NCBI GenBank assembly: GCA_026004795.1 | Contig: BPJV01000003.1 | Coordinates: forward strand, 434,001-498,000 | DNA length: 64,000 bases | Origin: Pirellulaceae bacterium | Lineage (GTDB): Bacteria; Planctomycetota; Planctomycetia; Pirellulales; Pirellulaceae | Reading direction: 5' to 3' | In this document: piece by piece, positions 1-13,169 of the stretch | Numbering within the stretch: the stretch's first letter is position 1 | Layout: every line of letters starts with the position of its first letter | Made by a program: the position numbers and the translations under genes | The notes under the pieces: generated by a model | Seen by the model: the letters and a program-made list of their open reading frames with translations, nothing else | The model's database searches: none | Told to the model about the DNA's origin: nothing

Positions 1-1
1 C

Positions 2-145
2 GCCTTTGCGAACGCCTTGCCCACCAAACGCGTCATCCCGCTCGTGGTCTGCTTCTTGCCCGGCCTATTCGTCTGGACGCTCGGCCCGGCCTTTGTGCAA
101 CTGTTCAAGATGGCCGAGACGTTCATCCAGGTGCGGAACTTCTAA
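2..145 (+). CDS. TadC-like type II secretion F-family protein (3' end only)
   Basis: Only the last 47 codons are in the window; the gene begins before position 1. The tail is a hydrophobic helix (VIPLVVCFLPGLFVWTLGP) followed by a short amphipathic end, which is how TadC/GspF inner-membrane platform proteins of Flp (Tad) pili finish. TadC anchors the pilus assembly machine in the cytoplasmic membrane. The stop codon TAA shares its last A with the ATG of the next gene (TAATG), so the two are probably translationally coupled. The secretin and TPR lipoprotein at 13858-17310 would fit the same pilus system. The call is an inference from a short C-terminal piece. Confidence 0.55.
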   Translation, partial: AFANALPTKRVIPLVVCFLPGLFVWTLGPAFVQLFKMAETFIQVRNF

Positions 146-540
146 TGATGAACGCTCGGTATCAACTGGTCGACGCCGAGACCGGCGAAGTGATCATCGC
201 AAAGCTGGAAGTTGCCGATACGTTTTTGCGGCGGTTCCGCGGCCTGCAATTGCGCCGCCCGCTCGCCCCCGATGAAGGACTGCTGCTGACACCTTGCCGC
301 TCCATCCATACTCACTGGATGCGGTTCTCGATCGACGCGGCGATGCTGGACCCGGAAGGATTGGTCTTGGCCGTCATCGCAGACGTTCGGCCGTGGCGGA
401 TCGTGCGCCGAGTCAAGGGGACTCAGGCTATTGTCGAGAGTGCCTCTGGCGTACTCGCTTCCATGATCCAGGTGGGGGCTCGTCTGCAAGTAGCGTCACA
501 CGATTACTTCGACGGTTCTAGGCCACCGTCGCGGCCATGA
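145..540 (+). CDS. DUF192 family protein
   Basis: 131 residues. The body matches the DUF192 fold: a GLQLRRPLAPDEGLLL segment, then HTHWMRFSIDAAML with the conserved aromatic/Met pattern, a VRPWRIVRRVKG strand and a VLASMIQVGARL ending. The function of DUF192 is not firmly known; members are small single-domain proteins, often exported, but no signal peptide is visible here. It starts on the A of the upstream TAA, so it is probably co-translated with the TadC-like gene, an arrangement that fits pilus loci. Its last 37 nt overlap the end of the convergent lipoprotein gene at 504-1013. Confidence 0.75.
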   Translation: MMNARYQLVDAETGEVIIAKLEVADTFLRRFRGLQLRRPLAPDEGLLLTPCRSIHTHWMRFSIDAAMLDPEGLVLAVIADVRPWRIVRRVKGTQAIVESASGVLASMIQVGARLQVASHDYFDGSRPPSRP

Positions 541-1013
541 TCGGCGTGCTCGTGCTTATGTGCGCTCCCAGAAAATGTCCCGGGCGCGAGCGGTTCTACT
601 TGGAGGTAGAATGCATTTCGATCCTGGCCCCTCACGTCCACGACGAGCTTAGAAGTAGCATACGAACCAAATTTCGGATGCACCACACCTTCGGTAGTAG
701 GCTGAAAACCGGCGTAGTCTTCCACCATTACCATCTGCACGACGACGCAGTCGTGTGTACCCGCAACGGCTCCGTCGCCAGGCTCATAGGTACTCAAGAC
801 GAAATGCCCTTCCCGATTGATTTCACCCCGCGCATGAATGCCATGTTCACGCGACTTCAGCTCCACCATCCCCATACGAACTGGTGATCCGTCAGCGAAG
901 ACAATTCGCCCCGTCACTGGGTACGTGGGGAGTCGGCCGTCGGAACAGCCAACCAGAGCGACAACCAGTGCGCCGCACACGATCGTTCCGTAGAATAACT
1001 GCCGATGAGACAT
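504..1013 (-). CDS. Lipoprotein with carboxypeptidase-regulatory-like (transthyretin-like) domain
   Basis: 169 residues from the ATG at 1013. I chose this start because it opens with MSHRQLFYGTIVCGALVVALVGCS, a classic lipoprotein signal with lipobox VGC; the longer frame adds 45 residues that do not look like protein. The mature part begins YPVTGRIVFADGSPV, the usual planctomycete small lipoprotein motif (a beta-sandwich related to carboxypeptidase regulatory domains), and ends in a His-rich tail (AHKHEHADHG) that could bind metal. It follows the DUF1559 gene by 13 nt and is probably its operon partner; DUF1559-lipoprotein pairs are common in planctomycetes. The function is unknown. Confidence 0.7.
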   Translation of the reverse strand: MSHRQLFYGTIVCGALVVALVGCSDGRLPTYPVTGRIVFADGSPVRMGMVELKSREHGIHARGEINREGHFVLSTYEPGDGAVAGTHDCVVVQMVMVEDYAGFQPTTEGVVHPKFGSYATSKLVVDVRGQDRNAFYLQVEPLAPGTFSGSAHKHEHADHGRDGGLEPSK

Positions 1014-1026
1014 CGCCTCCGTCCCG

Positions 1027-2046
1027 CTAATTGCTCCATTGTACGACTTGGCCGTCGTATCGATGGCACAAGCGGCCCAGTGTGTCGGTGTCGAGTGTCG
1101 TGGCAATGGCCCGCACGCTCCCGTCGGCCAGCGCAAAGTGACAGACACCAGGGTGCCAGCTTCCCCAGGCTACGAGGCTGTTGCCCGTCGAACGAATATC
1201 GGCCACGATCGGAACAGTAGGCCCACCGACGCGTGCACAATTGAACACGTGGTCTCCATTGTAAATAAAAGCATCTTCCGGTGATTGGCCAAGCTTACCA
1301 AGCGGAACATGCATCTCTCCCGCGAGAAATGTATTGCTCAGTCCGTCGATGACGTCCCTATGGGCAATCCGATCGACCCAGTCGCGCGGCATGTTGCTGA
1401 CACAGCGGGCCCGGCTGGAGATAATGATTCCCGTGCCGTTACCGCCAAAATAAAAATCCGTACGCAATCCAAATGCCCCGGGAGACAGATCGCCGTGGTT
1501 GCCGCCGTAATCGCCGACCGCTCCAGAAACGATTGTCGAACCAGTTGTGGTGACCGGTATCCTGCAACCACAGGGAAGCGTAACCCAAGTTGTCGTCGTC
1601 GCGGTTAACAGCCCTTTACCGACGGCGTTTGCAGCCGAACGGCGCGACGGGCAACAGTAAACAGCCAACGTTCCCTCTCGCACCTCCTGCGGATGATTCG
1701 CGTAGGGTTGCGAGTAATCCCAGCCGGCGGCAGCAGCAGACTGTTCCAGGAATGGCATGATCCGCACCAGCCAGGTCGTTTGCTCGCCACCGCAATCAAG
1801 CCTCGGCGGATCGCCCGGTCGAGGCTGATATCGAGCCGGCGGATAGGCACCGTAGGTTTCGTGAAACAACTCCGTCGCAAACGCAATTTGGCGAAGATGA
1901 TTCTTGCACTGAGCAGCTCGCGACGCTTCGCGGGCGGACTGCACTGCCGGTAACAGCACTCCGACCAGAATGCCGATGATGGCGATGACGACCAACAGTT
2001 CAACGAGCGTAAAGCCACTTGGGAAGATCGAAATCCGACCGCGCAT
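1027..2046 (-). CDS. DUF1559 family pseudopilin-like protein
   Basis: 339 residues. The N-terminus carries a type IV pilin/type II secretion methylation signal, GFTLVELLVVIAIIGILVG, with the prepilin peptidase site after Gly and Glu+5. This is followed by LLPAVQSAREASR and CKNHLRQIA, the hallmark start of the DUF1559 (SBP_bac_10-like) family that is greatly expanded in planctomycetes. The C-terminal HPGVCHFALADGSVRAI block is also family-typical (H-x-G-x...F-x-D-G-S-V). Members are thought to be exported pseudopilin-like envelope proteins; their role is not established. It sits between a permease gene and a lipoprotein gene on the same strand. Confidence 0.85.
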   Translation of the reverse strand: MRGRISIFPSGFTLVELLVVIAIIGILVGVLLPAVQSAREASRAAQCKNHLRQIAFATELFHETYGAYPPARYQPRPGDPPRLDCGGEQTTWLVRIMPFLEQSAAAAGWDYSQPYANHPQEVREGTLAVYCCPSRRSAANAVGKGLLTATTTTWVTLPCGCRIPVTTTGSTIVSGAVGDYGGNHGDLSPGAFGLRTDFYFGGNGTGIIISSRARCVSNMPRDWVDRIAHRDVIDGLSNTFLAGEMHVPLGKLGQSPEDAFIYNGDHVFNCARVGGPTVPIVADIRSTGNSLVAWGSWHPGVCHFALADGSVRAIATTLDTDTLGRLCHRYDGQVVQWSN

Positions 2047-2106
2047 GTTCGCGTTCTCTTTATGATTGAATGTGCAACGGTCCGACCTCCCTTCAATCTA
2101 CTTGCC

Positions 2107-2130
2107 CCAAACCTGCATGGCAACGTTTGG
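2107..2130 (-). terminator. Weak hairpin after the permease gene
   Basis: CCAAAC at 2107-2112 pairs with GTTTGG at 2125-2130 around a 12-nt loop, directly after the permease stop codon on the minus strand. There is no T-run, so this is at best a weak or Rho-assisted end, or a processing site between the permease and DUF1559 genes. Confidence 0.25.
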
Positions 2131-3654
2131 TTATTGCGAATAAGCGTCTCGCAAACGGCGGTAAGCCTGATTGACGGACATGCCGAGCGCCCGCGCCTGC
2201 TCCACCTCCTGGTCTTCCACCTCATGTTCCAGCAACTCCAGCTTGTCACGCAGGACGTTGGCTTTAGCCCGGCGATAAGGTGTCAGTTTCTCGCCCCGCA
2301 AGAACATGCTGACTTCCAACTTGCGCGTCCAATCGTCGTAGATGGGAATCCAATACAGGGCAGTGTCCCAGTCCTGTGACGAAGCGGCTGAGGCGACTTC
2401 CGTGTTGACGATTCGCATCTCTTCCAAGATCTCACTCGGCGGCGGGTAGTAGACGTAGCAACCAAAGACGCTCACACCGATCAAGCCGACCAGTGCAATC
2501 CCCCCCAGCACCGGGCCGGGCAACACGATGTCGCCGCGGGGCTGCTTCGCCGGATGCCGCTCGAGCCACTGCTCGAGGCGGCCGCCGCGGTCCCACTGAC
2601 GCAGCCCAAGGCCCACTGCCAAAAATCCCCCGGCCACAACCAAAGCGACGATTTCATGAGGCGCAATTTTCTCGCACAGCATGCGCCATGCCAACGAAAA
2701 CGCGTCGCTTGTGCCCGGCTGAAACGGGGCACAGTAGATATCGAACGCATGCGTATGGCCGGCCGGTTCGACGCCGTGCGGATACAGCGGCTTGTCGACG
2801 CCGTAGGCCAAGCCCACCACGACCGCGACCAGCAGTGCAAACCAAGCCGCGGAACGCCGCAGTCCGTAGATATGAACCATCCATGCGACCAAGCCGACGT
2901 TCGCGCCCGCACCGAGCGCCAACAAGGCGAACGCTGCGCCGACCGAATTGCCGTGCTGAAACATCGACGCGAGTTGCACCATCGCCGTCATCGGCGTGGC
3001 GTACGCGGGAATTGCTACGGCGGTCATGAACAGCGGAGCAAACGGGTCGTTGTGTTCGGCGGCGGTTTGCAAGTAACCGGCCGGGAGAATGAGACTGAGA
3101 GCCGCCACCCCCAGCAATCCGGCGGCGATATACAGGCTGCTCGGCCCGGCCAATTCCCGCGCGCCGAAGATGGCGACCGACAGCATGCGTTTTGCGCCGG
3201 GGGCTACCATCGATGGTTCCGGATCGGCGGCGACCGTGCCTGGAAACAACTTGTCCCAACCCATCCCGACCACGGTGACGATCACCAGCGAACAAAAGGA
3301 AAATGCAATGATCACCACCGGGTCCGCCAGCGTCAGCCCATACAGTACGGAGATCGGATTGAACAGCGGCGCGGTCAACCCGAACGCCAAAATCGCTCCA
3401 CCGGAAACCCCCGCCCGGCGCATCTGGCGCACGACGGGAATCACGCCCAGTGAGCAGACCGGGAGCAACATGCCGACCACCCACGCTTGTGGTAGCGATC
3501 GCCACGTGTTGTCGCCAAACAGCCGCCGAGTTCCGCTGTGTCCCAACAAGCGTCGGAACACTCCAGCGACGATCAATCCCACCAGAATCGTCGGCGTCGC
3601 CTGGACGAACGCCTGGACAAAGCGGAGCACCGCTCCCCAGTAAAGGCTTTCCAT
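2131..3654 (-). CDS. DUF318/ArsP-type membrane permease with C-terminal helical domain
   Basis: 507 residues from the ATG at 3654, which follows the sequence GAGGAAACAAAG formed by the stop codon of the upstream gene. About eight hydrophobic segments are visible (residues ~10-30, 55-75, 85-105, 110-130, 180-205, 215-235, 245-275, 345-365 and 385-405). Conserved family motifs are LLPVCSLGVIPV and GLTAPLFNPISVLYG in the first half and AIPAYATPMTAM in the second, the internal-repeat pattern of the DUF318/COG0701 permeases (ArsP, YraQ). Family members export organoarsenicals or are linked to metal handling. After the last membrane segment there are about 100 residues of charged helix, an unusual extension. 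The lipoprotein gene 10 nt upstream is probably its partner. Confidence 0.75.
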   Translation of the reverse strand: MESLYWGAVLRFVQAFVQATPTILVGLIVAGVFRRLLGHSGTRRLFGDNTWRSLPQAWVVGMLLPVCSLGVIPVVRQMRRAGVSGGAILAFGLTAPLFNPISVLYGLTLADPVVIIAFSFCSLVIVTVVGMGWDKLFPGTVAADPEPSMVAPGAKRMLSVAIFGARELAGPSSLYIAAGLLGVAALSLILPAGYLQTAAEHNDPFAPLFMTAVAIPAYATPMTAMVQLASMFQHGNSVGAAFALLALGAGANVGLVAWMVHIYGLRRSAAWFALLVAVVVGLAYGVDKPLYPHGVEPAGHTHAFDIYCAPFQPGTSDAFSLAWRMLCEKIAPHEIVALVVAGGFLAVGLGLRQWDRGGRLEQWLERHPAKQPRGDIVLPGPVLGGIALVGLIGVSVFGCYVYYPPPSEILEEMRIVNTEVASAASSQDWDTALYWIPIYDDWTRKLEVSMFLRGEKLTPYRRAKANVLRDKLELLEHEVEDQEVEQARALGMSVNQAYRRLRDAYSQ

Positions 3655-3664
3655 CTTTGTTTCC

Positions 3665-4123
3665 TCATGGCGTTTGATCAGCCGCCAACTCTGTAGCCGC
3701 CAGAAACAGTTGTTTGATCTCCAGCAAAGCATTGTATAGCTGATCGAATTCGGTTTCGTACGTCTGATACTCCTGGTACCGATCCGCATCGCGCCGGGAT
3801 TGCACCTCGTTCAAGATGGTCTCAAGCCGCTGGGACGTGGCGTAAACGCTGTTCCAAGGCTCCTCCCCCAGGTCGCTATCGGCGGCCAAGTCGGGCAGCC
3901 AGCGGACAATGTCGCTCGTTTCCGTGAACACATCGAGCGGATCGTTGGTGCGGAGATCGCCGTTGGTGATCTCTGCGTGCAGGGTCAGCAAGCGGTCTAC
4001 CGCTGCGGGAAAATCAGCCGGCTTGTGGGCCGGCGCGTGATGTTCGGCCTCCTCGACACGGCTGCCGTGGCAGCCGGCAAAGGCGGCCACTGCAACCATC
4101 AGCGGCAACAGGCTGTAGTTCAT
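3665..4123 (-). CDS. Small helical lipoprotein upstream of the permease
   Basis: 152 residues. MNYSLLPLMVAVAAFAGCHG is a lipoprotein signal with lipobox FAGC, so the mature protein should be membrane-anchored. The rest is His-containing near the N-terminus (EEAEHHAPAHKP) and then almost all charged helix, with no family I can name. A ribosome-binding site AAGGA precedes the ATG at 4123. The stop codon lies 10 nt before the permease start and is part of the permease's ribosome-binding site, so the two are surely one transcription unit. Both this protein and the permease's C-terminal tail are helical, EF/W-rich domains, so they may interact outside the membrane; that is an inference. Confidence 0.65.
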   Translation of the reverse strand: MNYSLLPLMVAVAAFAGCHGSRVEEAEHHAPAHKPADFPAAVDRLLTLHAEITNGDLRTNDPLDVFTETSDIVRWLPDLAADSDLGEEPWNSVYATSQRLETILNEVQSRRDADRYQEYQTYETEFDQLYNALLEIKQLFLAATELAADQTP

Positions 4124-4222
4124 TGCTAGTCCTTACCATTTCAAATTGATGTGGATTGAGCTGCCGATTTGCCAGCGGTTTACTTGCCCTTGTTGCCAGG
4201 CGGGTAGGCATGCCCCCGCCGG

Positions 4223-5209
4223 TTAACGAAAGACGGGCACGTCGACCGAAGCCAGGATTTCTTGAACAATCTTCTGCGCCGAGTCGAAGTCGCCGGCCAA
4301 ACGGACTTCCAGCACCGGACCAGCGACGTCTTGGATGTCATCCGGGGTGACGAAGTCGCGTCCACGGAGATGGGCGCGGGCTTGTGCCACCCGTTGCCAG
4401 GTGATCAGCCCCCGCGGGCTGAGCCCCAGCGTGACCTCCTTGTGTTCGCGGGTCGCTCGGCCCAGGTCGACCAGATATTCGCGAACCTTTTCCGTCACCG
4501 CGACTTTGGCGACATGCTCTTGCAACTGGCGGAGCTCCGTCGGCGTGATCACCGGCTGCGTTTCGCGCCGCACACCCTCCGCGACGCCGATGTTCGCGGC
4601 CAGCATCTCCAGTTCGCTGCGCCGGTCGGGATAGCCGATCCGCAATTTCATCGCGAAACGATCGAGTTGCGCTTCGGGCAACGGATAGGCGCCGTGGCTC
4701 TCGACCGGATTCTGTGTCGCGATGACGAAGAACGTTTGGCTCAAAAGATGCGTTTGTCCGTCGAGCGTCACCTGCCGTTCGGCCATCGCTTCGAACAGCG
4801 CACTCTGCGTCCGTGGCGTAGCGCGATTGATCTCGTCGGCCAGCAACACGTCCGAGAAGACCGGCCCGCGACGGAACTCGAACTCACGCGTTTTCTGGTT
4901 GAACATGTTGAACCCGGTAATGTCGGTCGGCAACAAATCGGGCGTGCATTGCACACGAGCGAAGTCGCCACCAACCGCGCCGGCCACTGCCTTGGCGAGC
5001 GTCGTTTTACCGAGGCCCGGCAAATCGTCGAACAGCAAGTGGCCCCGAGCCAACAGGCAAGCGAGCACCATTTCGACGATGTCGTTCTTGCCGATCAAGG
5101 CGGTCTGCAGCGATCGACGCAGGCCATCGATGGCGGCTTGATGTTGGCAAGACGACGTGCGAAGTTTTGCCGTGCTCTGATCGGATGGCGTTGCCGCTGG
5201 TAGACTCAT
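4223..5209 (-). CDS. MoxR family AAA+ ATPase
   Basis: 328 residues from the ATG at 5209, preceded by AGGGAAT. Motifs: Walker A as GLGKTTLAKA (the P-loop varies as DLPGLGKTT), Walker B VLLADEINRA, the RTQSALFEAMAERQVT sensor block and the IATQNPVE motif, all in the standard MoxR order, then a C-terminal lid with LSPRGL. MoxR ATPases act as chaperones that mature or regulate partner proteins, usually VWA or DUF58 proteins. The next genes upstream in the transcription unit are a transglutaminase-fold protein (13-nt gap) and a DUF58 protein, the classic MoxR-DUF58-transglutaminase set. The longest frame is 33 residues longer but has no sensible start. Confidence 0.9.
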   Translation of the reverse strand: MSLPAATPSDQSTAKLRTSSCQHQAAIDGLRRSLQTALIGKNDIVEMVLACLLARGHLLFDDLPGLGKTTLAKAVAGAVGGDFARVQCTPDLLPTDITGFNMFNQKTREFEFRRGPVFSDVLLADEINRATPRTQSALFEAMAERQVTLDGQTHLLSQTFFVIATQNPVESHGAYPLPEAQLDRFAMKLRIGYPDRRSELEMLAANIGVAEGVRRETQPVITPTELRQLQEHVAKVAVTEKVREYLVDLGRATREHKEVTLGLSPRGLITWQRVAQARAHLRGRDFVTPDDIQDVAGPVLEVRLAGDFDSAQKIVQEILASVDVPVFR

Positions 5210-5222
5210 AATTCCCTCATGA

Positions 5223-7637
5223 TCACTTGAAATGACACAGGTTTCTGGCGAGATGCTGACGAGTGCAAGCCGCGGCCACGAATCGACAAACCGACTTGAC
5301 GGTCGCATCCTCAGAAGGATCGATCCCGGTGGGAGCGTACAACAGTCGATCCGCCCAGCACAGGAAATGGTTCATTGAAAGCTGAAGGTCAGGCGGTGCA
5401 TTGTCTGCCAGCCGGCTGTACCAGGCAGCAATGGTATGCCTCCGGGGACGTGGACACCCCGCCAACCAGGCGCGCCATTCCAACAGTCGCATCGTCCACC
5501 GTAATCGGGCGCGACTGGATCGCAGACCCATCACTTCGCAAACTCCCACCGCTACGGCATCCAACCACACGCAGCGAGCAACGAACAGCAGGACGAACAG
5601 TACACTGACACCGACCAAGACAGCGAGGTGCTCGACAAACCAACGGCCGAAATCTCTCATGGCGATTGTCGCCCATTGTCGCCAGGTAAGCGATTCTCGC
5701 GGCGGCTCGTAGCCGGGCGTCGGTTCGATCGCCAGCCAGGTGTTTTCATCCACACCGACTTCCACCCACACGTGCACATCCTCAGGCAGCACGGTTGTCT
5801 GACCGGCGCGACGATCAAAGCGATCGCGGCGTGCATAAAAACCCGTAACCAAGCGTGTCTGATACCCCAGCTCACGCAACAACACGGCCGCCGTCGTCGC
5901 AAACAAGTAGTCGGGCCCGCGTTTGGCGTGCAAGAAATAAGCCACGACATCTGGACAATCTTCCGGTGCCGGGCAGTTCGGATCCAAGACGAATTCGGTG
6001 CGCAGCCATTCGACGACGGCCTCTACTTGTTGCCAGTTGCGGGACGAATTCTCCACTGGTGAACGTCGCCAGAGTGGCGGTTGGCGCTGCGAACCAAACG
6101 TTTTTATCGTGAAGCGATCTATATCCAGGTCGAATGCGCTTCCCACTTGCGTCGTCGTCTGCTCGCTGGCGGCAAGCGGAAAGCTCGCCCCACGTAGTGG
6201 CTGCAAGTTCACGCCCTGCGATCGCAGGTGGATGACGGTCAATTGCGGGATGTGATCGCGTACTGGCATGCAAGCGACGCCGTCGTCGGTCCAGCCGAAA
6301 AACTCGGGCTGATCGACCTTGTCCACATGGACTGCCGTCAATTGCGGCGGCGAAGGAAAACGATTGGTCTTCAGATTTATGATCTTCACCGCGTGCGATT
6401 CCATGCCGCGATGGATGAAGGAGGAGCCGACACTCATCAGGTAGGCCCAAGGCTTGTCGTGCTGTGTTTCGAGCCGGATTGTCGGCCGGTTTTCCGTTGC
6501 GCCCGCGTGTGTCCACACTCGCCCATCGAACGTGTCGAACCGTTCGAGCGCCAAATGCAACGGCACGCGGCCGACCACGTACAGCATCGCTGGTGCTTTG
6601 AGGTCGTCGAGCGTTTGTCGCCTGCGCTCGACATTCCGCCGCACAGCCGAAAACTCGCGGCCGTTCCGCTCGGTCTTAGCGATCTGCTGCTCGGTTTCTT
6701 TCACTTCGCTCGGCGCTAAGCCGATGTTGCGTTCCAGTTTCTTTTTCGGCTTCGGTGGTTCGCCGTACATGTCGTTGAACATGTCGTACAGCGTTGGCAT
6801 GTCGGAATCGAGAAACAGGTCGCTCTCCACCGGTCCGAAGCTCATCGCTTCGTCTTTTGCGGCGACCATCGCGTCCCCGTCTCCCACGCCGGAACGGGCG
6901 TGCGAATCATGCCACTGCGTGCCGCCGGAGGTCGGCATGAAACCGTGCAGGGACACCGCCGAAACCCCCGTCGTGCCGATCAGCGTCGCCAGCAGCAACA
7001 GGACGATTCCCGTACCGCCAATCACCGAAACCCGCACCGGTATCCGCCGCTCGACTTGGGAGGCCACCAGCGCTCCGGCCAACCGGTCCCAATACGCGCC
7101 CATAAGCCACCATAAACCCCACATGCCATAAACAGCGGTTAGCAGCAGCGCCAACCGGTCTTTGGTCATCGTCATGACAAACAAGGACAAGAAGCTGCTC
7201 AGCAACACTGCGGCGCCTCCCAGGCGCGGCACATGAGAGAACACAGCCAGCACAACGGCAGACAATTCCAAACCGGTCAGCATCAGCATCTCGAACGGTT
7301 CGCTCCCTTCCGCGAACGACCGCATCGCCAGATCAGCAGCCAGCGGATAAACGACGCTGGCCATGACGGCGATCGTCGCCAAGCATCGTGCCTGCGGAAG
7401 TGTTCTCGCGTGGCGACGCAAGACGAACGCGACGACCGTTGTGATCACCAATTCACAGAGGGCGTGCACCGCCGTCGATGCCGGATTCCACGCCGCGTTG
7501 ACCCGCACCACGGTCCATGTCGCACTGGCGATCAAGACGAGCAAAAGCGTATCGACGCGCGCCGTGGGGTAAGGCCCCTGCTCGCCGTTCGTGCTGTTGG
7601 GATTGCTTTCGCAAGCTGGAAGCTTACGCCACGTCAT
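5223..7637 (-). CDS. DUF3488/transglutaminase-fold membrane protein, catalytic residues altered
   Basis: 804 residues from the ATG at 7637. The N-terminal part (to about residue 200) has several membrane helices of the DUF3488 type, followed by a charged coiled region (~250-310). The transglutaminase core lies near residues 540-630, with a final membrane helix (VGVSVLFVLLFVARC) and a DUF4129-like C-terminal tail. In the core the usual GxCxxFA motif reads GPDYLFA, so the catalytic Cys is missing. HVWVEV keeps the His, and the usual Asp is Glu in AIEPTPGY. The protein therefore may be a non-enzymatic scaffold. The first codons come from a copy of the palindromic repeat (MTWRKLPAC), which overlaps the DUF58 stop by 14 nt. 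Confidence 0.8.
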   Translation of the reverse strand: MTWRKLPACESNPNSTNGEQGPYPTARVDTLLLVLIASATWTVVRVNAAWNPASTAVHALCELVITTVVAFVLRRHARTLPQARCLATIAVMASVVYPLAADLAMRSFAEGSEPFEMLMLTGLELSAVVLAVFSHVPRLGGAAVLLSSFLSLFVMTMTKDRLALLLTAVYGMWGLWWLMGAYWDRLAGALVASQVERRIPVRVSVIGGTGIVLLLLATLIGTTGVSAVSLHGFMPTSGGTQWHDSHARSGVGDGDAMVAAKDEAMSFGPVESDLFLDSDMPTLYDMFNDMYGEPPKPKKKLERNIGLAPSEVKETEQQIAKTERNGREFSAVRRNVERRRQTLDDLKAPAMLYVVGRVPLHLALERFDTFDGRVWTHAGATENRPTIRLETQHDKPWAYLMSVGSSFIHRGMESHAVKIINLKTNRFPSPPQLTAVHVDKVDQPEFFGWTDDGVACMPVRDHIPQLTVIHLRSQGVNLQPLRGASFPLAASEQTTTQVGSAFDLDIDRFTIKTFGSQRQPPLWRRSPVENSSRNWQQVEAVVEWLRTEFVLDPNCPAPEDCPDVVAYFLHAKRGPDYLFATTAAVLLRELGYQTRLVTGFYARRDRFDRRAGQTTVLPEDVHVWVEVGVDENTWLAIEPTPGYEPPRESLTWRQWATIAMRDFGRWFVEHLAVLVGVSVLFVLLFVARCVWLDAVAVGVCEVMGLRSSRARLRWTMRLLEWRAWLAGCPRPRRHTIAAWYSRLADNAPPDLQLSMNHFLCWADRLLYAPTGIDPSEDATVKSVCRFVAAACTRQHLARNLCHFK
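7611..7632 (-). repeat. Palindromic KLPAC/WKL repeat, copy A (DUF58/transglutaminase junction)
   Basis: Read on the minus strand this is GTGGCG then TAAGCTTCCAGCTTGC. The core GCAAGCT-TCC-AGCTTGC of the family is a 7-bp inverted repeat with a 3-nt loop; here the first base of the core is T. The copy supplies both the TAA that ends the DUF58 gene and codons 3-9 of the transglutaminase-fold gene (WRKLPAC), whose ATG lies 3 nt before it. Confidence 0.85.
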
Positions 7638-8955
7638 GACAAGCACGCTCCCATTGGTGACAAATTTGCATGGAACAATCGGAGTCGCCATCGAGTGCGA
7701 TCCAGACATGACGACCGCGGACGGACGTCGCCTCGTCTCCGCTCCCGATCAGCACTAGCCGAAGTGGACCTTTTGTCCCGGCCCCGCTTTCCCACTCCGG
7801 CCGGCGCTGGTGGGACGTCACGACTACGGTGAACGCTTGGCGGCCGAAGTTGCCCGGCTGCCGCGACGATTCGGGATCGGCTTGGAAGCGAGCCAAGGCG
7901 TCGAGCAGTTGATGCAGGCTCGCCGCGCCCGGTACCAACAGGAAATCGAGATTGCCCATGACGAATCGCACCTGAGCGTGATGGGCGTGAAGTTCCTGAG
8001 CGATGCTGGCCGCCACTCGGATCGCTGTTTCGAGCTCCCGTGGGGTAAGCTTCCAGCTTGCCGTCAAGTTCCGTGACAGATCTTGGCAAGCTGGAAGCTT
8101 GCCCCACGACGCAAACGCCGCGACGTCAACCTCGACCACCACCAATCGTCGCGCGGCCGCTTGCCGTTCGGTCACGACCAGTGCCTCGCGCCGCGCGGTT
8201 TGAGCCCAGTGGATGCTGCGCAGTCGGTCGCCTTCCCGAAATGGACGGACTCCAATGACGTCGCCTTCGTAGCCCGGCCGGTCCAACAGCATGCCGATCA
8301 GGTCGGCGATGTCCCCGCCCAGTGAGGGAATCGAAGTGAGCGGCGTCGTTCGCGGCCATACCAGGAGTTCCCGCTGGACGGAGATCCGTTTTGCTGCCCG
8401 CCAGATGCCGAATGGAAACCCCGTCGTCAGTTCGGGCACGCTACGAGGGTAAACACCGCGCGCGTCCGGGCGAAACTCAAAGACATACTCCGAACGGCTC
8501 CAGCCGGGGACTCGAGCCAACGCGGCGACCGGGCGCTCTCCCGTTTCGGTTGGTTCGAGAAAGAAGCCGTTTTCAACCGCCATCCCCCACAGCGGCCAAG
8601 GCCAACGGTTGTGCAGCGACAGCCGCACCTGCACACGTTCGCCTTCGCGGCAGCGTCGGCAGTCGAATGCGATCTCGGCCGACGTGCCGCGCATCGCCAC
8701 CCACGGCCACGCTACCCCCACCAGCATCACGGCCACGAGCGCCCCAAAGATGAGCCACACTTGTGGCTCCAGGAATACTGCGGTCAACGCCGCCGCGGCA
8801 GCTCCCACGATGAACCAGCCGATCGGCTGCTTTAGCCAATAGACGTAGCGATTCGCCCACGGACAGAAGTCTTGGTTCAGCAGGGCAAGCATCTTGCTTG
8901 CCGACGGCAGGGTACAGAATCGAGGCGCGCAACCTGGAAGCTTACGCCACTTCAT
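7624..8955 (-). CDS. DUF58 domain protein with an in-frame repeat insertion
   Basis: 443 residues if it starts at the ATG at 8955; an inner ATG at 8892 (MLALLNQDF, 422 residues) is possibly the ancestral start. Two membrane helices (residues ~40-85) precede the DUF58 signature GVRPFREGDRLRSIHWAQTA, where the conserved RxGD..R.IHW block is intact. Between VVEVDVAAF and ELETAIRVAA about 26 residues are encoded by two inverted copies of the palindromic repeat (SWGKLPAC...TASWKLTPR). DUF58 proteins partner MoxR ATPases. The start overlaps the stop of the MerC-like gene by 14 nt and the end overlaps the transglutaminase start by 14 nt, in both cases inside repeat copies. Confidence 0.85.
   Translation of the reverse strand: MKWRKLPGCAPRFCTLPSASKMLALLNQDFCPWANRYVYWLKQPIGWFIVGAAAAALTAVFLEPQVWLIFGALVAVMLVGVAWPWVAMRGTSAEIAFDCRRCREGERVQVRLSLHNRWPWPLWGMAVENGFFLEPTETGERPVAALARVPGWSRSEYVFEFRPDARGVYPRSVPELTTGFPFGIWRAAKRISVQRELLVWPRTTPLTSIPSLGGDIADLIGMLLDRPGYEGDVIGVRPFREGDRLRSIHWAQTARREALVVTERQAAARRLVVVEVDVAAFASWGKLPACQDLSRNLTASWKLTPRELETAIRVAASIAQELHAHHAQVRFVMGNLDFLLVPGAASLHQLLDALARFQADPESSRQPGNFGRQAFTVVVTSHQRRPEWESGAGTKGPLRLVLIGSGDEATSVRGRHVWIALDGDSDCSMQICHQWERACHDVA
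8040..8062 (+). repeat. Palindromic repeat, copy B (inside DUF58 gene)
   Basis: A 23-nt copy beginning GTGGGGTAAGCTTCC on the plus strand. It lies head to head with copy C at 8085-8107, 22 nt away, and differs from it by one base. On the coding (minus) strand it reads in frame as TASWKLTPR. Confidence 0.9.
8085..8107 (-). repeat. Palindromic repeat, copy C (inside DUF58 gene)
   Basis: A 23-nt copy beginning GTGGGGCAAGCTTCC on the minus strand, the most regular copy: GCAAGCT and AGCTTGC are perfect arms around TCC. On the coding strand it reads in frame as SWGKLPAC. Together with copy B it forms an inverted pair that could fold as a long hairpin in the mRNA. Confidence 0.9.
8884..8902. repeat. 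Second palindrome near the DUF58 start
   Basis: GGCAAGCA-TCT-TGCTTGCC, an 8-bp perfect inverted repeat with a 3-nt centre. It overlaps the inner candidate start codon of DUF58 (ATG at 8892) and lies 27 nt from repeat copy D. It is related to, but not the same as, the KLPAC-type repeat. Confidence 0.75.
8929..8950 (-). repeat. Palindromic repeat, copy D (MerC-like/DUF58 junction)
   Basis: Read on the minus strand it begins GTGGCGTAAGCTTCCAGG; one arm has a mismatch (GGTTGC for GCTTGC). It provides the TAA stop of the MerC-like gene and codons 3-9 of the DUF58 gene (WRKLPGC), exactly the arrangement seen for copy A one gene downstream. Confidence 0.8.
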
Positions 8956-9658
8956 GGACCACCTCCTGCTCCACACCCGTCCAAGCCGGTGGCGTGGTGG
9001 CCAGAGCAAAACCTTCACTTTCCCCAGGATTGGCTGACCGGCCCCTGCGCACGGCTAAAAATCGCTCCGAGTGGGGATTACGGCAGCAACGACATTGCTG
9101 GCGATTCCACAGATGAGCGGTCACCATGCCAATGCTGCCCGCCACCGTCATGACCTGCTCGCCGCGACCGCCGAGCAAGTGATGACCGAACAACAACGCT
9201 CCGCTCAGCAGCGACACTCCCAGCATTCCGAGAGCCAGCACTCCTATCCGCCGGTGTTGACGATACCCCGCGCTCCAGGCGACGATGCCTAACGGCGCGA
9301 CCGCAGCCAACAGGCCGACGTGAATCCAGAAGTCGGTCGTCGCCGAGCAACACGCTGCATACGCGTCGTCGCCCGCCACGGGCTGGACGGCTCCGTGCAC
9401 TGCGCAACAGGATGCGCAGTGTTCACCGCCAACGCTCGCGCTGGAACGCGAATCGGCGGGTGGCGACAACATCGCTCCAGCCGTTTCCGCATTGTTTGCG
9501 TTGGACATGCTCAACACCGGTATCGCCGCCAGCACAAGCGGGAACACCACACAATGAATCATGCACAGTGTCGATGCGCACATGCCGATCGCATCGAGAT
9601 GGATATGCACTGACTTCACGCGGAATGACCTTTCTGTCGCAGGTAGCGGGTTCGTCAT
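8942..9658 (-). CDS. MerC-like Cys-rich membrane protein
   Basis: 238 residues. Helix 1 carries GMCASTLCMIHCVVFPLVL, the paired-Cys membrane segment typical of MerC-domain proteins (mercury uptake in mer operons, and of unknown metal role elsewhere). A Cys/His-rich loop follows (GEHCASCCAVHGAV and AACCSATTDF), then helices near residues 110-130 and 140-160, with HHLLGGRGEQ, AHLWNRQQCRCC and another Cys cluster. The last about 60 residues (after RNPHSERF) look low-complexity and end in the repeat-derived HEVA, so the original C-terminus may have been shorter. Neighbours are a small lipoprotein gene 19 nt upstream and the DUF58 gene. A metal transport or sensing role is inferred. Confidence 0.65.
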   Translation of the reverse strand: MTNPLPATERSFRVKSVHIHLDAIGMCASTLCMIHCVVFPLVLAAIPVLSMSNANNAETAGAMLSPPADSRSSASVGGEHCASCCAVHGAVQPVAGDDAYAACCSATTDFWIHVGLLAAVAPLGIVAWSAGYRQHRRIGVLALGMLGVSLLSGALLFGHHLLGGRGEQVMTVAGSIGMVTAHLWNRQQCRCCRNPHSERFLAVRRGRSANPGESEGFALATTPPAWTGVEQEVVHEVA

Positions 9659-9677
9659 GCCTCACTCGGTTGCCCAA

Positions 9678-10076
9678 TTAGAAGGGCGTTCCCGAACCTT
9701 CAAGCTGGTTTCGATAACGCCCTCTCTTGTCAAACTCTAAGTACATCCACTGCGGCTCCGGTTGCACGGGGTAGACCCAATAGAACCGTCGATGGCCGCG
9801 CGCATCGACATACAAGGCGCGCGATCCTTCCAGCAACGGGTTGTCGACCATGCCCCGATGCGCGGCGAAGTAATGAGTGAGCAAGGCATCATCCGCTTCC
9901 GTAGCGGACATTCTGCGCCACGTTTGCCCGTCCGCGTCGATCGTATCGGGTAGACTGAGTGGCGGTGGCGAACTTGTCGCCGAGGATGGCGAGCACCCCA
10001 GCGCCAACGGAAGCATCAGACTCAAGGCGAACGCTGGGCAAACGAGATGAACATAACTCGTTGAATGGTTCGTCAT
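9678..10076 (-). CDS. Small lipoprotein, hypothetical
   Basis: 132 residues. The N-terminus has a hydrophobic segment ending in LALGCS, a lipobox, preceded by a Thr/Ser-rich start, so an exported lipoprotein is likely. The mature region (QTWRRMSATEADDALLTHYF ... RRFYWVYPVQPEPQWMYLEF) is compact and aromatic-rich; I do not recognise the family. It lies 31 nt after the beta-propeller gene and 19 nt before the MerC-like gene, on the same strand, so it is probably part of the same unit. Confidence 0.55.
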   Translation of the reverse strand: MTNHSTSYVHLVCPAFALSLMLPLALGCSPSSATSSPPPLSLPDTIDADGQTWRRMSATEADDALLTHYFAAHRGMVDNPLLEGSRALYVDARGHRRFYWVYPVQPEPQWMYLEFDKRGRYRNQLEGSGTPF

Positions 10077-10107
10077 GACGATGATCCTTATCTATGCCGA
10101 GTTACCA

Positions 10108-11676
10108 CTATTTGGTGGCCTCGTCAGTTTTGAGGTTGGTGATGCAATACAGCCGCGTCCCGGTGCGGACGTAGAACGCGTTGTCGGTGGCGGCCACCCC
10201 GTACACAATGGGGTCGCGACTCAGCATGCGCGAGTTTTCTCGCCGCTTGCGAAACTCTTCTCCCATAGCGCGAATCTCATCACCGTCCAAAACGGAATCG
10301 CCATTCTTGTCCCCGAAAGTCAACCAGTTACGCGATTCTTCGGGCAATTCCTCCACCACGAGCTTTCCATCTCCGTTGGCGTCGTTGCGTAGCATTCGTT
10401 CCGCGAATCCAGAGGGCGATTGGCTCGCTCCGCCGCGCGAGCTTGCGTCGCTGCCAGCGGGTCGCTCGCCGCCAGCCGGGGGGCCACTGACAGTCTCGAC
10501 ATACGTCTCGGGGACGGGTGGGCTCGATTCCTCCCACAGCCGGTTCACCGCCAACTGCTTCCACTGCGCACCGGAGCGTACCACGGCGGTCACGCCGTTC
10601 TTGCCAAAGAAATAGATTCGATCGTGTGCCACGATGGGTGTGGCCCAGCACGGACCGGGTAGCCGCTGGGCGTAGTGTTCGCTACCGGTAACCCGGTCTA
10701 GACAGTACAACACACCAACACGGTTCACGTAATAGACGCAGTTGCCCGCCACCACGGGGCTGGCATAATCGCACATCGCACGCTTGGCCCGCCATAGGAC
10801 ATCGAAGCCGCCGGCAGTATTCGGTTTTAGACATACGTTGGATCGCGCCGCATTGGTCGTTGATTCAAAGTCCGACAAGGAGGCCCCCAGAAACAACAGC
10901 TCACCATCGTAGGTTGGTGACGGGATGTTGTTTCCACTAATCCCACCCATCGTCCATAGTTCCTCGCCGGTGGAGGCATCATGCATCTCGACGCTGCCTC
11001 CAGCACTGACGACGACTACGGTCCGCTCTCCCTGCGATAACACGATGGGTGAACTCCACGATTTGCACGATTTGCGCGGCGTCCGCCATTTCGTTTCGCC
11101 GGTCCGTTTGTCGAGCGATATCAGGTACGACGGCCCGTCGTGCTGGATGTTGAGCACCAGCGACTCGGCGGTTTGTACGGGGGAAGCGCCCAACCCGTGG
11201 TGGTTGTCGAACTCGCCGTAATCGCGCACCAGCGATCGCTTCCAGAGAATGTGCCCGTCGTGGGAAACGGCAAGCACGTCACCGCCTTCAAAAAAGGCAT
11301 AGACCGCGCGGTCGTCGACAACTGGCGTTGGCGCCGCGCGGGCAACGGCGTAGTTCGATGGTGCCCCGCTGCTGGCTGGCGATTCCACGCGCCACAGCAC
11401 TTCGCCGTTGTTCGCGTTGATGGCCAGTAAGACGCACGTTTCCTTCTGCGGACCTACGACCGCCGTCACGTAGACACGGCCACCCCAAGTCACGGGGGAC
11501 GACTGACCGTATCCGGGCAACTCTCGTTGCCAAGCGATCCCCTCAGTGGGCGACCAGGTGAGCGGCAAGTCTGCGGCATTGATGGTCGATGAACCGCCAT
11601 TTCGAAAGCTGACCCAAGATGGCGAATCCACATCGGTACCGAAAATCATAGCCAAGTACATTGCAAGTGCAGTCAT
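10108..11676 (-). CDS. PQQ-type beta-propeller protein with EF-hand repeats
   Basis: 522 residues. Repeated blades of the quinoprotein type are visible (INANNGEVLWRVES, DKRTGETKWRTPR, DASTGEELWTMG, DRVTGSEHYAQR), each with the A/D-x-x-TGE-x-x-W pattern of PQQ-like beta-propellers. Near residues 430-475 there are two EF-hand-like calcium loops, NDANGDGKLVVEEL and DKNGDSVLDGDEI, and then a final blade (VYGVAATDNAFYVRTGTRLYCI). The N-terminus is short and hydrophobic (MTALAMYLAMIFG), so export is likely. AAGGAT precedes the ATG. Such proteins are common next to DUF1559 genes in planctomycetes; no enzyme activity can be read from the sequence. Confidence 0.75.
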   Translation of the reverse strand: MTALAMYLAMIFGTDVDSPSWVSFRNGGSSTINAADLPLTWSPTEGIAWQRELPGYGQSSPVTWGGRVYVTAVVGPQKETCVLLAINANNGEVLWRVESPASSGAPSNYAVARAAPTPVVDDRAVYAFFEGGDVLAVSHDGHILWKRSLVRDYGEFDNHHGLGASPVQTAESLVLNIQHDGPSYLISLDKRTGETKWRTPRKSCKSWSSPIVLSQGERTVVVVSAGGSVEMHDASTGEELWTMGGISGNNIPSPTYDGELLFLGASLSDFESTTNAARSNVCLKPNTAGGFDVLWRAKRAMCDYASPVVAGNCVYYVNRVGVLYCLDRVTGSEHYAQRLPGPCWATPIVAHDRIYFFGKNGVTAVVRSGAQWKQLAVNRLWEESSPPVPETYVETVSGPPAGGERPAGSDASSRGGASQSPSGFAERMLRNDANGDGKLVVEELPEESRNWLTFGDKNGDSVLDGDEIRAMGEEFRKRRENSRMLSRDPIVYGVAATDNAFYVRTGTRLYCITNLKTDEATK

Positions 11677-11779
11677 CGTCTTAAATCCTTTCCGCGAGAT
11701 GTTTCGTCTCGACTGTCTCAGTGCTTGTGAGGAACGTTTTCGTACCTATGAAAGAGCCTATATCGGTCGTGTGGCCGAG

Positions 11780-12748
11780 TTAAAAGTCGTCCAAAACCTG
11801 CCCGTCGTTCCGAGCGTGCAGGTTCCGCCACGTCACCAGGTTGATTGTTTCCGCGATAAAGCGAACGCTTCCGTCCGCCAGCGCAACGTTAACGCCCCCA
11901 GGGTGCAGGCTGCGCGCACCCATCAGAGCGTCGCCGTGATGCGAAACATCAGGTAGCGGCGAATTCGGGGGAAAGTAAGCGTTGATCAACGTCTGGTAAG
12001 TGAGATTCCGAATCCATTGCCCTGCCCGCCGGCCGGTGAACCGCGCCGCAGGACGTGCCGCGAGGTCATCCGCGTTGGCCGAGCATGGCGCGCCGCCGCT
12101 GACGATCTTCATTTGCGTTTGGGCATCTAGCAAAGTCGTGGTGTCCACTCCGCGCGATCCGAATCGCGTTTCGGCAAACAACACGGTGTTGCTCGTGCCG
12201 TCTGTGATGTCCCTGAACTTGGTCGTAGAACCTCGCCAGAACACTCCGTTGGCAAGCCCGCTGCTGCTGCAGTAATTCATTCCGGCGCCCGAGCCCATGT
12301 TGGCCATGTAGTTGCCGCCAGCCCACACATGGTTGTTTTGCGTGTACAACACTTCTCCAGAGTCGCTGGGACAGATCAAGACCGGAATTGGCTTGCCTAC
12401 GACTGGCGCCAAGGGAGGATTGACCGTTGGGTTCCACGGCACCCCAACCAATAATGGCTGGCGGAAGTCGATCAACGCCTGCAGATTTCCCTGTTCAATG
12501 AAAGGCAAAACTAACGCCTGAGCCGAGTATCCGTACAGGGAATCGGCCGCCGGCATCGGAAAGCTGGTGTGCGCGCCGTGATAGTTGTGAGTGGCCAGAG
12601 CAATTTGCTTCAAGTTGTTCGAACAACTCATCCGGCGCGCCGCCTCGCGTGCTGCCTGCACCGCGGGTAACAACAGGGAGACCAGAATGCCGATGATCGC
12701 AATGACAACTAGAAGCTCGACAAGGGTGAATGCGGTTCGCTGTCTCAT
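11780..12748 (-). CDS. DUF1559 family pseudopilin-like protein (second copy)
   Basis: 322 residues from the ATG at 12748, chosen because the protein then opens RQRTAFTLVELLVVIAIIG, the standard short prepilin leader. It continues with LLPAVQAAREAARRMSC and NNLKQIALATHNYH, the best-conserved part of DUF1559, and ends HPGGVNVALADGSVRFI. It is the typical form of the family and closer to consensus than the copy at 1027-2046. The beta-propeller gene follows 103 nt downstream. A truncated CobW-like GTPase frame ends 5 nt upstream of its start codon. Confidence 0.88.
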   Translation of the reverse strand: MRQRTAFTLVELLVVIAIIGILVSLLLPAVQAAREAARRMSCSNNLKQIALATHNYHGAHTSFPMPAADSLYGYSAQALVLPFIEQGNLQALIDFRQPLLVGVPWNPTVNPPLAPVVGKPIPVLICPSDSGEVLYTQNNHVWAGGNYMANMGSGAGMNYCSSSGLANGVFWRGSTTKFRDITDGTSNTVLFAETRFGSRGVDTTTLLDAQTQMKIVSGGAPCSANADDLAARPAARFTGRRAGQWIRNLTYQTLINAYFPPNSPLPDVSHHGDALMGARSLHPGGVNVALADGSVRFIAETINLVTWRNLHARNDGQVLDDF

Positions 12749-12752
12749 AGAT

Positions 12753-12872
12753 TCAACTTCTCTTGGGAAAGATTGGGACAGAAACATGGTCCAGCAGGCT
12801 CGTCTTGCCTGCTCCTAAGAAACCAGACAACACAGCGACGGAAATGGGTATATTCGTGTCCTTCATGGGCAT
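12753..12872 (-). pseudogene. N-terminal remnant of a CobW/COG0523 GTPase
   Basis: 39 codons reading IPISVAVLSGFLGAGKTSLL, then an abrupt change to SVPIFPKRS and a stop. The piece is a textbook CobW/YciC N-terminus: beta-strand plus Walker A GFLGAGKTSLL. The following family motifs (NDMSEVN-like, CxCC, NKxD) are all missing, and the stop lies 5 nt before the DUF1559 start, so the rest of an originally about 350-residue gene has been deleted. COG0523 GTPases are metallochaperones, many under zinc control, so the relic supports a metal theme for this cluster. The ~300 bases further upstream (12873-13169) show no gene I can support. Confidence 0.6.
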
Positions 12873-13169
12873 AGCATGGATCCTCGATGAAAGCAGATGA
12901 TTCGAATGAGCTGCCGCCAACCCTGGCGCACGGCGATCCTTCCGCCGCCACTTGAGATTTCTGGGGACGACGAGTCGGAAACGCGAGCGCGGAGTTTCCC
13001 CTGTCAGCCCGCCACGGTGCATGCACCACCTACACCTCAGGCGGTGGGGACAGAAAAAGCCCGGCACGTCGCCGATCGCTCCGCCATCGGACACCCCTGG
13101 CGTGAAGTGAGATGCACTACCACGAAAGAGGACGGGCCGGCGCAGCGGTCCATCACTGCGAGCATGAAC

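Follow-up and report, generated by a model that had tools for sequence, protein, structure and literature searches.

Among the described systems, the closest to the elements considered here are the REPs of the GTAG superfamily. As characterized in PMC3733652, these repeats carry a tag at one end and a stem of 5–13 bp, form inverted dimers and lie behind genes; one family, GTAG-20 of Opitutus terrae, bears GTGG, a variant of the tag, and several REP families are recorded in R. baltica. Intragenic REP dimers or groups also occur, the dimers encoding 20–30 residues, and REP termini may supply stop codons, in published GTAG REPs through the terminal TAG. In P. fluorescens, inverted doublets (REPINs) number in the hundreds, are mainly extragenic, and have a commonest GI spacing of 71 bp (PMC3116915, consulted in part). 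The Rickettsia palindromic elements, the first-described of which are about 150 bp long, are palindromic repeats found in frame in protein genes (passages of PMC10969869 and PMC3733652). Finally, ribosome stalling has been reported for E. coli REPs located ≤15 nt from a stop codon (Liang et al. 2015, cited after PMC12306157). Titles and abstract openings, within a partial coverage of the literature, yielded no further paper on the present stem family in planctomycetes.

The window analyzed here is a stretch of 64,000 nt from a Pirellulaceae bacterium (contig BPJV01000003.1, positions 434,001 to 498,000), in which MerC-like, DUF58, transglutaminase and MoxR genes follow one another in this order on the minus strand. 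Three REPINs, A, B/C and D, have been found there within 1.4 kb, each representing an inverted pair of a 22–23-nt GTGG-tagged palindrome with an overall length of 68–71 nt (Table 1). Very probably, they belong to a mobile family, were inserted into genes that already overlapped, and were kept where the proteins tolerate change. The preliminary description of this DNA had recognized a REP-like repeat family in coding DNA, which is supported; the aligned orthologues lack the element at both A and B/C. Its gene order, MoxR–DUF58–transglutaminase, has to be revised, since the gene upstream of D is MerC-like, while the MoxR gene lies downstream and contains no REP copy. The true start of the MoxR-type gene is probably located inside the tabulated frame.

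Table 1. Genes, junctions and REPINs of the cluster (window coordinates)
Feature	Position	Strand	Basis or remark
MerC-like gene, 238 aa	8942..9658	(-)	PF03203, E 1.3e-24
DUF58-family gene, 443 aa	7624..8955	(-)	PF01882, 22.8 bits, just below the 23.4-bit cut-off
Transglutaminase-like gene, 804 aa	5223..7637	(-)	PF01841, E 3.9e-15
MoxR-type AAA ATPase gene	4223..5308	(-)	PF07726, E 9.3e-61
Shine-Dalgarno-like AGGAGG, 6 nt before ATG 8955	8962..8967	(-)	sequence
Shine-Dalgarno-like GGGAG before ATG 7637, within DUF58 codons	7648..7652	(-)	sequence
MerC/DUF58 stop/start overlap, 14 nt	8942..8955	(-)	ATGAAGTGGCGTAA, read from 8955 to 8942
DUF58/transglutaminase stop/start overlap, 14 nt	7624..7637	(-)	older junction; ATGACGTGGCGTAA, read from 7637 to 7624
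REPIN D, 71 nt	8880..8950	(-)	arm D 8928-8950 and degenerate partner 8880-8902
REPIN B/C, 68 nt	8040..8107	(-)	near-perfect inverted pair inside the DUF58 gene
REPIN A, 69 nt	7564..7632	(-)	arm A 7610-7632 and degenerate inverted partner 7564-7586

All four copies of the palindrome that had been located from the letters alone, A, B, C and D, are present. Copies A and D indeed lie at the two junctions, but they are not the single copies they had been taken for: each is accompanied by a degenerate inverted partner with 4 (A) or 3 (D) mismatches, the D partner having partly lost its tag (GCAG). When the best inverted partner was scored at each of 3000 random starts in the window, it had at least 6 mismatches except in six cases, five of which fell on copies A and C and one on 6171-6193. 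The doublets are inverted and regularly spaced, with the GTGG tags pointing outward in all three. Every REPIN is situated where the coding frames are open. Which frame of the element is read does not vary among the three, the reading gene being the downstream one at A and D and the host gene at B/C. The TAA inside GTGGCGTAA is a stop in one frame, and the downstream frame is open (TGG CGT AAG CTT CCA GCT TGC), so that a single insertion can end the upstream gene and extend the downstream one while leaving both intact. In this way the stop of DUF58 (TAA 7626-7624) comes from REPIN A, which also contributes part of the transglutaminase N-terminus, and that of the MerC-like gene (TAA 8944-8942) comes from REPIN D, from which most of the N-terminal leader of DUF58 is likewise derived. 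The two 14-nt overlaps and the junction peptides, CHDVA-stop/MTWRKLPAC at A and VHEVA-stop/MKWRKLPGC at D, agree with the preliminary description. Rfam gave no match at gathering score in window positions 4000-13000.

Site 6171-6193 is a doubtful candidate for a fifth, decayed REP within the transglutaminase gene (3 mismatches). It corresponds to a deletion in G080, a genome of another genus, and in G076, and more distant orthologues are of similar length (alignment of 11 rows including that of the window; G061 left out).

The three REPINs thus resemble the GTAG-superfamily repeats, GTAG-20 above all, in the end tag, the stem, the inverted dimers and the location of family members behind genes, as well as in forming intragenic dimers or groups and in supplying stops. 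The window stem may belong to one of the families already published in PMC3733652. Copies A and D differ from the repeats described there in using an internal TAA and in sitting in stop/start overlaps. Their length of 68–71 nt agrees with the commonest spacing of the P. fluorescens doublets; unlike the latter, the family has few copies in the window's genome, coding frames contain three of these, and no RAYT linked to it was found among the Y1 loci examined. They can be likened by description to the Rickettsia elements in lying in frame in protein genes, while being shorter than those first described. As with the E. coli stop-codon REPs, a hairpin is found within 15 nt of the stop; unlike in that system, the stop is inside the element, and the downstream start precedes the element by 5 nt. 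The kind of element is already published, and the addition made here is its placement in stop/start overlaps together with the comparison of orthologous sites.

The DUF58/transglutaminase junction was compared with 11 orthologous loci, the best-scoring outside the window's genome among 98 genomes. Ten of them possess a stop/start overlap in which the position of the start is the same as here, and they are free of the REP; in the same number, G079 being the exception, DUF58 ends soon after C(H/N)(D/E) and the ATG-A of the transglutaminase gene lies inside that end. The REP is absent from all 11 junctions. The TGGGR stretch at the GGGAG site is likewise retained in all but G079. Since the REP-free overlap is so widespread, the coupling arrangement must be older than the repeat. 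The overlap measures 20 nt in G080, G076, G033 and G069 and 14 nt here, DUF58 being cut short by the TAA inside GTGGCGTAA; ahead of the shared RVD, the transglutaminase is 16 residues longer than that of G080. REPIN A therefore entered an old coupled junction, whose overlap it reduced from 20 nt (as in G080 and G076) to 14 nt by introducing a TAA of its own. For about 20–24 nt of the junction in G080 and G076 the window offers no clear equivalent, which means that A is not a simple clean insertion.

The preliminary description supposed that the palindrome had created, and now sets, the coupling between these consecutive genes. Identical 14-nt overlaps at two consecutive junctions speak for this proposal, and so do the ribosome stalling reported for E. 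coli REPs near stops and the predicted pairing downstream of the transglutaminase start, where positions +3 to +30 have a mean unpaired value of 0.29 here versus 0.48 in G080 and 0.46 in G076. At the DUF58/transglutaminase junction, however, the REP-free overlaps and starts of the orthologues rule out that the repeat made the overlap. Moreover, the start regions at A and D are predicted to fold no more stably than shuffled sequences (z 0.15 and -1.14), and the unpaired value from the Shine-Dalgarno-like site to the start at A (0.31) lies between those of G080 (0.17) and G076 (0.48). Creation and present control of coupling by the palindrome are therefore very unlikely. The pairing at +3 to +30 is the sole hint of a hairpin effect at a start, and a translational role of the hairpins, little supported by the folding predictions, is possible.

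At the MerC/DUF58 junction the insertion is older. The DUF58 gene of G080 also begins with a REPIN, now decayed (GTGGCGTGAGCTTCCGGATTGC and an inverted partner, with 3 and 4 mismatches, 66 nt). Its distance from the start codon exceeds that in the window by 5 nt, and the frame used is a different one (MKPRGVSFRIAN versus MKWRKLPGC here). The D elements of the window and of G080 are read as one old insertion, although an independent insertion or a replacement by a newer copy may also account for them. A rule of start-codon targeting, considered for A and D, was rejected in view of the different distance and frame in G080. G076 resembles G080 at this place, yet its REPIN is not significant, and it was not accepted as a third carrier. 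No orthologue with an intact MerC gene directly before DUF58 was found: in G080 there is only a MerC stretch matching residues 12-69, and in G069, whose MerC homologue has a C-terminal tail unlike that of the window, another gene separates MerC from DUF58.

Gene calls for the window's genome and G080 were made with a simple codon-usage caller written for this analysis, which put the DUF58 start of the window at 8892 and missed the MerC-like gene. The AGGAGG in front of ATG 8955 favors that start over the ATG at 8892. D may be mostly untranslated if the caller's start is the one used, and PMC3733652 warns that N-terminal REPs may lie before the true start. Translation covering all three elements is suggested by the open frames.

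REPIN B/C, whose frame reads WGKLPACQDLSRNLTASWKLTP, lies between the DUF58 motifs VDVAAFA and LETAI, which are separated by 25 residues in the window, 13 in G080 and G076, and 5 in G033; it enlarges a variable loop. An inverted pair inside the DUF58 body had been correctly noticed; the gain, put then at about 26 residues, amounts to 12 relative to the two nearest orthologues and 20 relative to G033, and 22 full codons fit within the 68 nt of the REPIN. Together with its flanks, the RNA hairpin is predicted to have an energy of -52.7 kcal/mol (z -7.7), and this stable fold and the near-perfect arms indicate that B/C is the least decayed of the three REPINs. Exact removal of the 68 nt would leave the frame broken, so that extra indels must be assumed. 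Both genes are open, and the changes specific to their own lineage are commonest at third codon positions (positions 1/2/3: 28/10/48 over 418 codons of DUF58, 50/33/80 over 755 codons of the transglutaminase); the pattern is less clear-cut C-terminal to B/C (12/6/14, 134 codons). The aligned DUF58 and transglutaminase orthologues, a comparison that had been proposed from the outset, are devoid of the element at A and B/C.

A search of the whole 5.59-Mb genome found the element elsewhere in it, and relatives have it as well. A 15-nt core with ≤1 mismatch gave 10 matches versus 0 for the reversed pattern, and a longer pattern with ≤3 mismatches gave 15 versus 3 for the controls. Ten of the 15 lie within one 10.8-kb stretch (binomial P about 2e-24), and copies are mostly clustered in this genome. 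The further copies are at tadA/tadB (a stem variant), at tadB/tadC, flanking a PIN-like gene of contig C10, and on contig C8, the last being a singlet behind a small gene; the names tadA–C and PIN come from reading the translations, without a family search. The other REPINs of this genome measure 64, 70 and 69 nt. One core match, C1:912201, has no tag and lies inside a long open frame, and it was counted as a chance match. On C10, the gene flanked by two REPINs (L005:5600-6614) resembles a toxin gene by its translation, and the small gene ahead of the C8 REP resembles the one beside the second C10 REPIN.

The family is dispersed more evidently in G080, where 49 matches were found against 4 for the controls. 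Forty-six of these overlap no called gene. They include the D copy, taken here to be translated, which was counted outside genes because the caller starts the G080 DUF58 gene behind it. Copies often lie close behind a stop codon, with the tag towards it: within 20 nt, the tag side faces a stop in 11 of the 49 copies and a start in 1, and the tail side a stop in 1 and a start in none; within 60 nt, the corresponding counts are 14, 4, 7 and 6. The three REPINs of the window are exceptions to this extragenic placement. The copies that overlap G080 genes are L193:2720-2749 (contig C21, at the very 3′ end), L192:2907-2928 (C17) and L188:2901-2922 (C46). Other doublet arrangements also exist in this genome, for example with the tags face to face.

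The repeat unit, GTGGSGYAAGCWTCCWGCTTGC, is a palindrome within the range of 20–40 nt with a GTAG-type tag at one end. It starts with GTGG in 34 of 48 distinct copies, the search pattern having included the tag and allowed ≤3 mismatches. Compensatory change is seen in the pair that closes the loop: the 48 distinct copies, their relatedness being ignored, have T-A in 17, A-T in 17, T-G in 9 and non-pairs in 5. This pair was left free by the search pattern, whereas the remaining stem pairs were partly fixed by it. At least one core match is present in 39 of 60 relatives, mostly one to three with similar control counts; clearly more were found in G002, G010, G012, G013 and G030, reaching 384 in G012 and 129 in G030. 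The repeat thus belongs to a mobile, GTGG-tagged REP family that is common to several related planctomycete-type genera and is probably non-autonomous. It might be argued that the window harbors ordinary conserved coding sequence which is palindromic by accident, as all three REPINs are in open frames. This is contradicted by the copies elsewhere in the genome and outside genes, by the orthologues compared, which have no element at A and B/C, and by the covariation of the loop-closing pair; the idea was rejected on the latter two grounds and is hardly credible.

As to how the family moves, a single-strand mechanism like that of RAYTs is suggested by the tag and by the way the REPINs are built. 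A RAYT gene, which the preliminary description expected to be worth looking for, was sought through Y1_Tnp matches, 36 of which occur in six genomes; 30 loci in five genomes were examined, the remaining 6 being all in G012. None of the 30 is flanked by this REP (≤4 mismatches, about 1.5 kb on each side or to the contig end). The nearest doublet seen is about 2.1 kb from a Y1 gene (G012, contig C24), and a RAYT next door was dismissed as a candidate. G010, an assembly of about 920 contigs, has 26 REP-core matches and no Y1_Tnp match. Two of four Y1 loci checked, one in the window's genome and one in G080, have clear GTAG-tagged hairpins nearby; those of the Y1 genes L148:1419-2032 and L150:1025-2470 (GTAGCCTGGGGC... 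and GTAGCATGGGGC...) represent a different REP class. The family would nevertheless presumably be moved by a transposase.

MITE-like features, that is, terminal repeats with a target-site duplication, are absent at A, B/C and D, which have no matching flanks, and are found solely in a derivative from G012. There (e.g., L059:1930-2100), the doublet is enclosed by the terminal repeats of an element of 122 bp with the ends CAATACCG/CGGTATTG, and 13 of 16 copies examined are bordered by 10-bp target-site repeats, which agree at 9 or 10 positions and usually have TA at their center. The copies examined come from 13 loci chosen among the listed matches of the 384, and most of these copies are part of the 122-bp element. 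Apparently, a REPIN has been captured by a MITE in G012.

The cluster belongs to a segment with an unusual affinity. TadC is 87% identical to its G080 counterpart, and the best of 14 same-genus genomes reaches 66%; the DUF58 protein is 76% identical to that of G080 and 72% to that of G076, with at most 39% among the same-genus rows listed. By comparison, glycyl-tRNA synthetase is 77% identical to that of G080 and 76–90% (best piece) in 12 of 13 same-genus genomes, G010 giving no match and G003 being left out. The tad–DUF58 segment (window 1-9700 plus C3:430900-434000, L003) is far closer to another genus than to its own, which suggests that it has been horizontally shared with a G080-like lineage. 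At tadB/tadC a REPIN lies directly behind the stop, with none in G080. At the end of tadA there is a stem-variant REPIN (L003:6190-6254, AGGCTTCCAGCCT), whose first G completes the tadA stop TAG; G080 has its own TAA. G080 carries no insertion at the tadA/tadB, tadB/tadC, A or B/C sites, and these four most likely arose after the segments separated. Further along the window, a short open frame at 12753-13094 resembles the N-terminal part of a GTPase, which G033 has in intact form next to its DUF58 gene and which is apparently truncated here.

With only 3 of 49 copies overlapping a called gene in G080, three translated REPINs in 1.4 kb are unusual, and chance, a quirk of the segment or a function could each explain them. 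A function acquired later is conceivable: insertions neutral at entry could have been kept as hairpins tuning the DUF58:transglutaminase ratio or as a useful DUF58 leader. The presence of D with an open frame in two genera, the two further REPINs between tad genes of the segment that already has three in adjacent genes, and the extreme stability of the B/C hairpin would fit such a role. The D leaders of G080 and the window are nevertheless read in different frames, with no conservation of the peptide sequence, and decay is evident in the arms that pair with A and D, so that a later function is considered unlikely. In a more specific form, REPINs in stop/start overlaps would serve as junction cassettes that combine a stop, an open leader and a hairpin opened by the ribosome, the D leader being kept across genera; this is a speculative, quite improbable reading. 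If it were true, repeated insertion would rewire the strength of coupling among the genes of an operon, and the hairpin would be opened only by a ribosome finishing the first gene.

The reading preferred here is survival by tolerance rather than by function. In G080 the family, as is usual for REPs, settles mostly outside genes and often just behind stops, with its tag towards the stop. Because the overlapping genes of this cluster leave almost no spacer, the surviving insertions would sit where the proteins tolerate change, namely in the codons shared by one C-terminus and the next N-terminus (A, D) and in a variable loop (B/C). The three REPINs have decayed to different degrees, B/C least, and D is found in another genus as well. 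The locus lends no support to the notion of a mobile element inventing translational coupling. What it shows, by comparison with orthologous sites, is that a REPIN entering a packed operon can replace the stop of one gene and lengthen the next protein while both frames stay open, and that the frame in which an element at one site is read can differ between genera. It is a concise example of how mobile repeats give rise to new protein ends.
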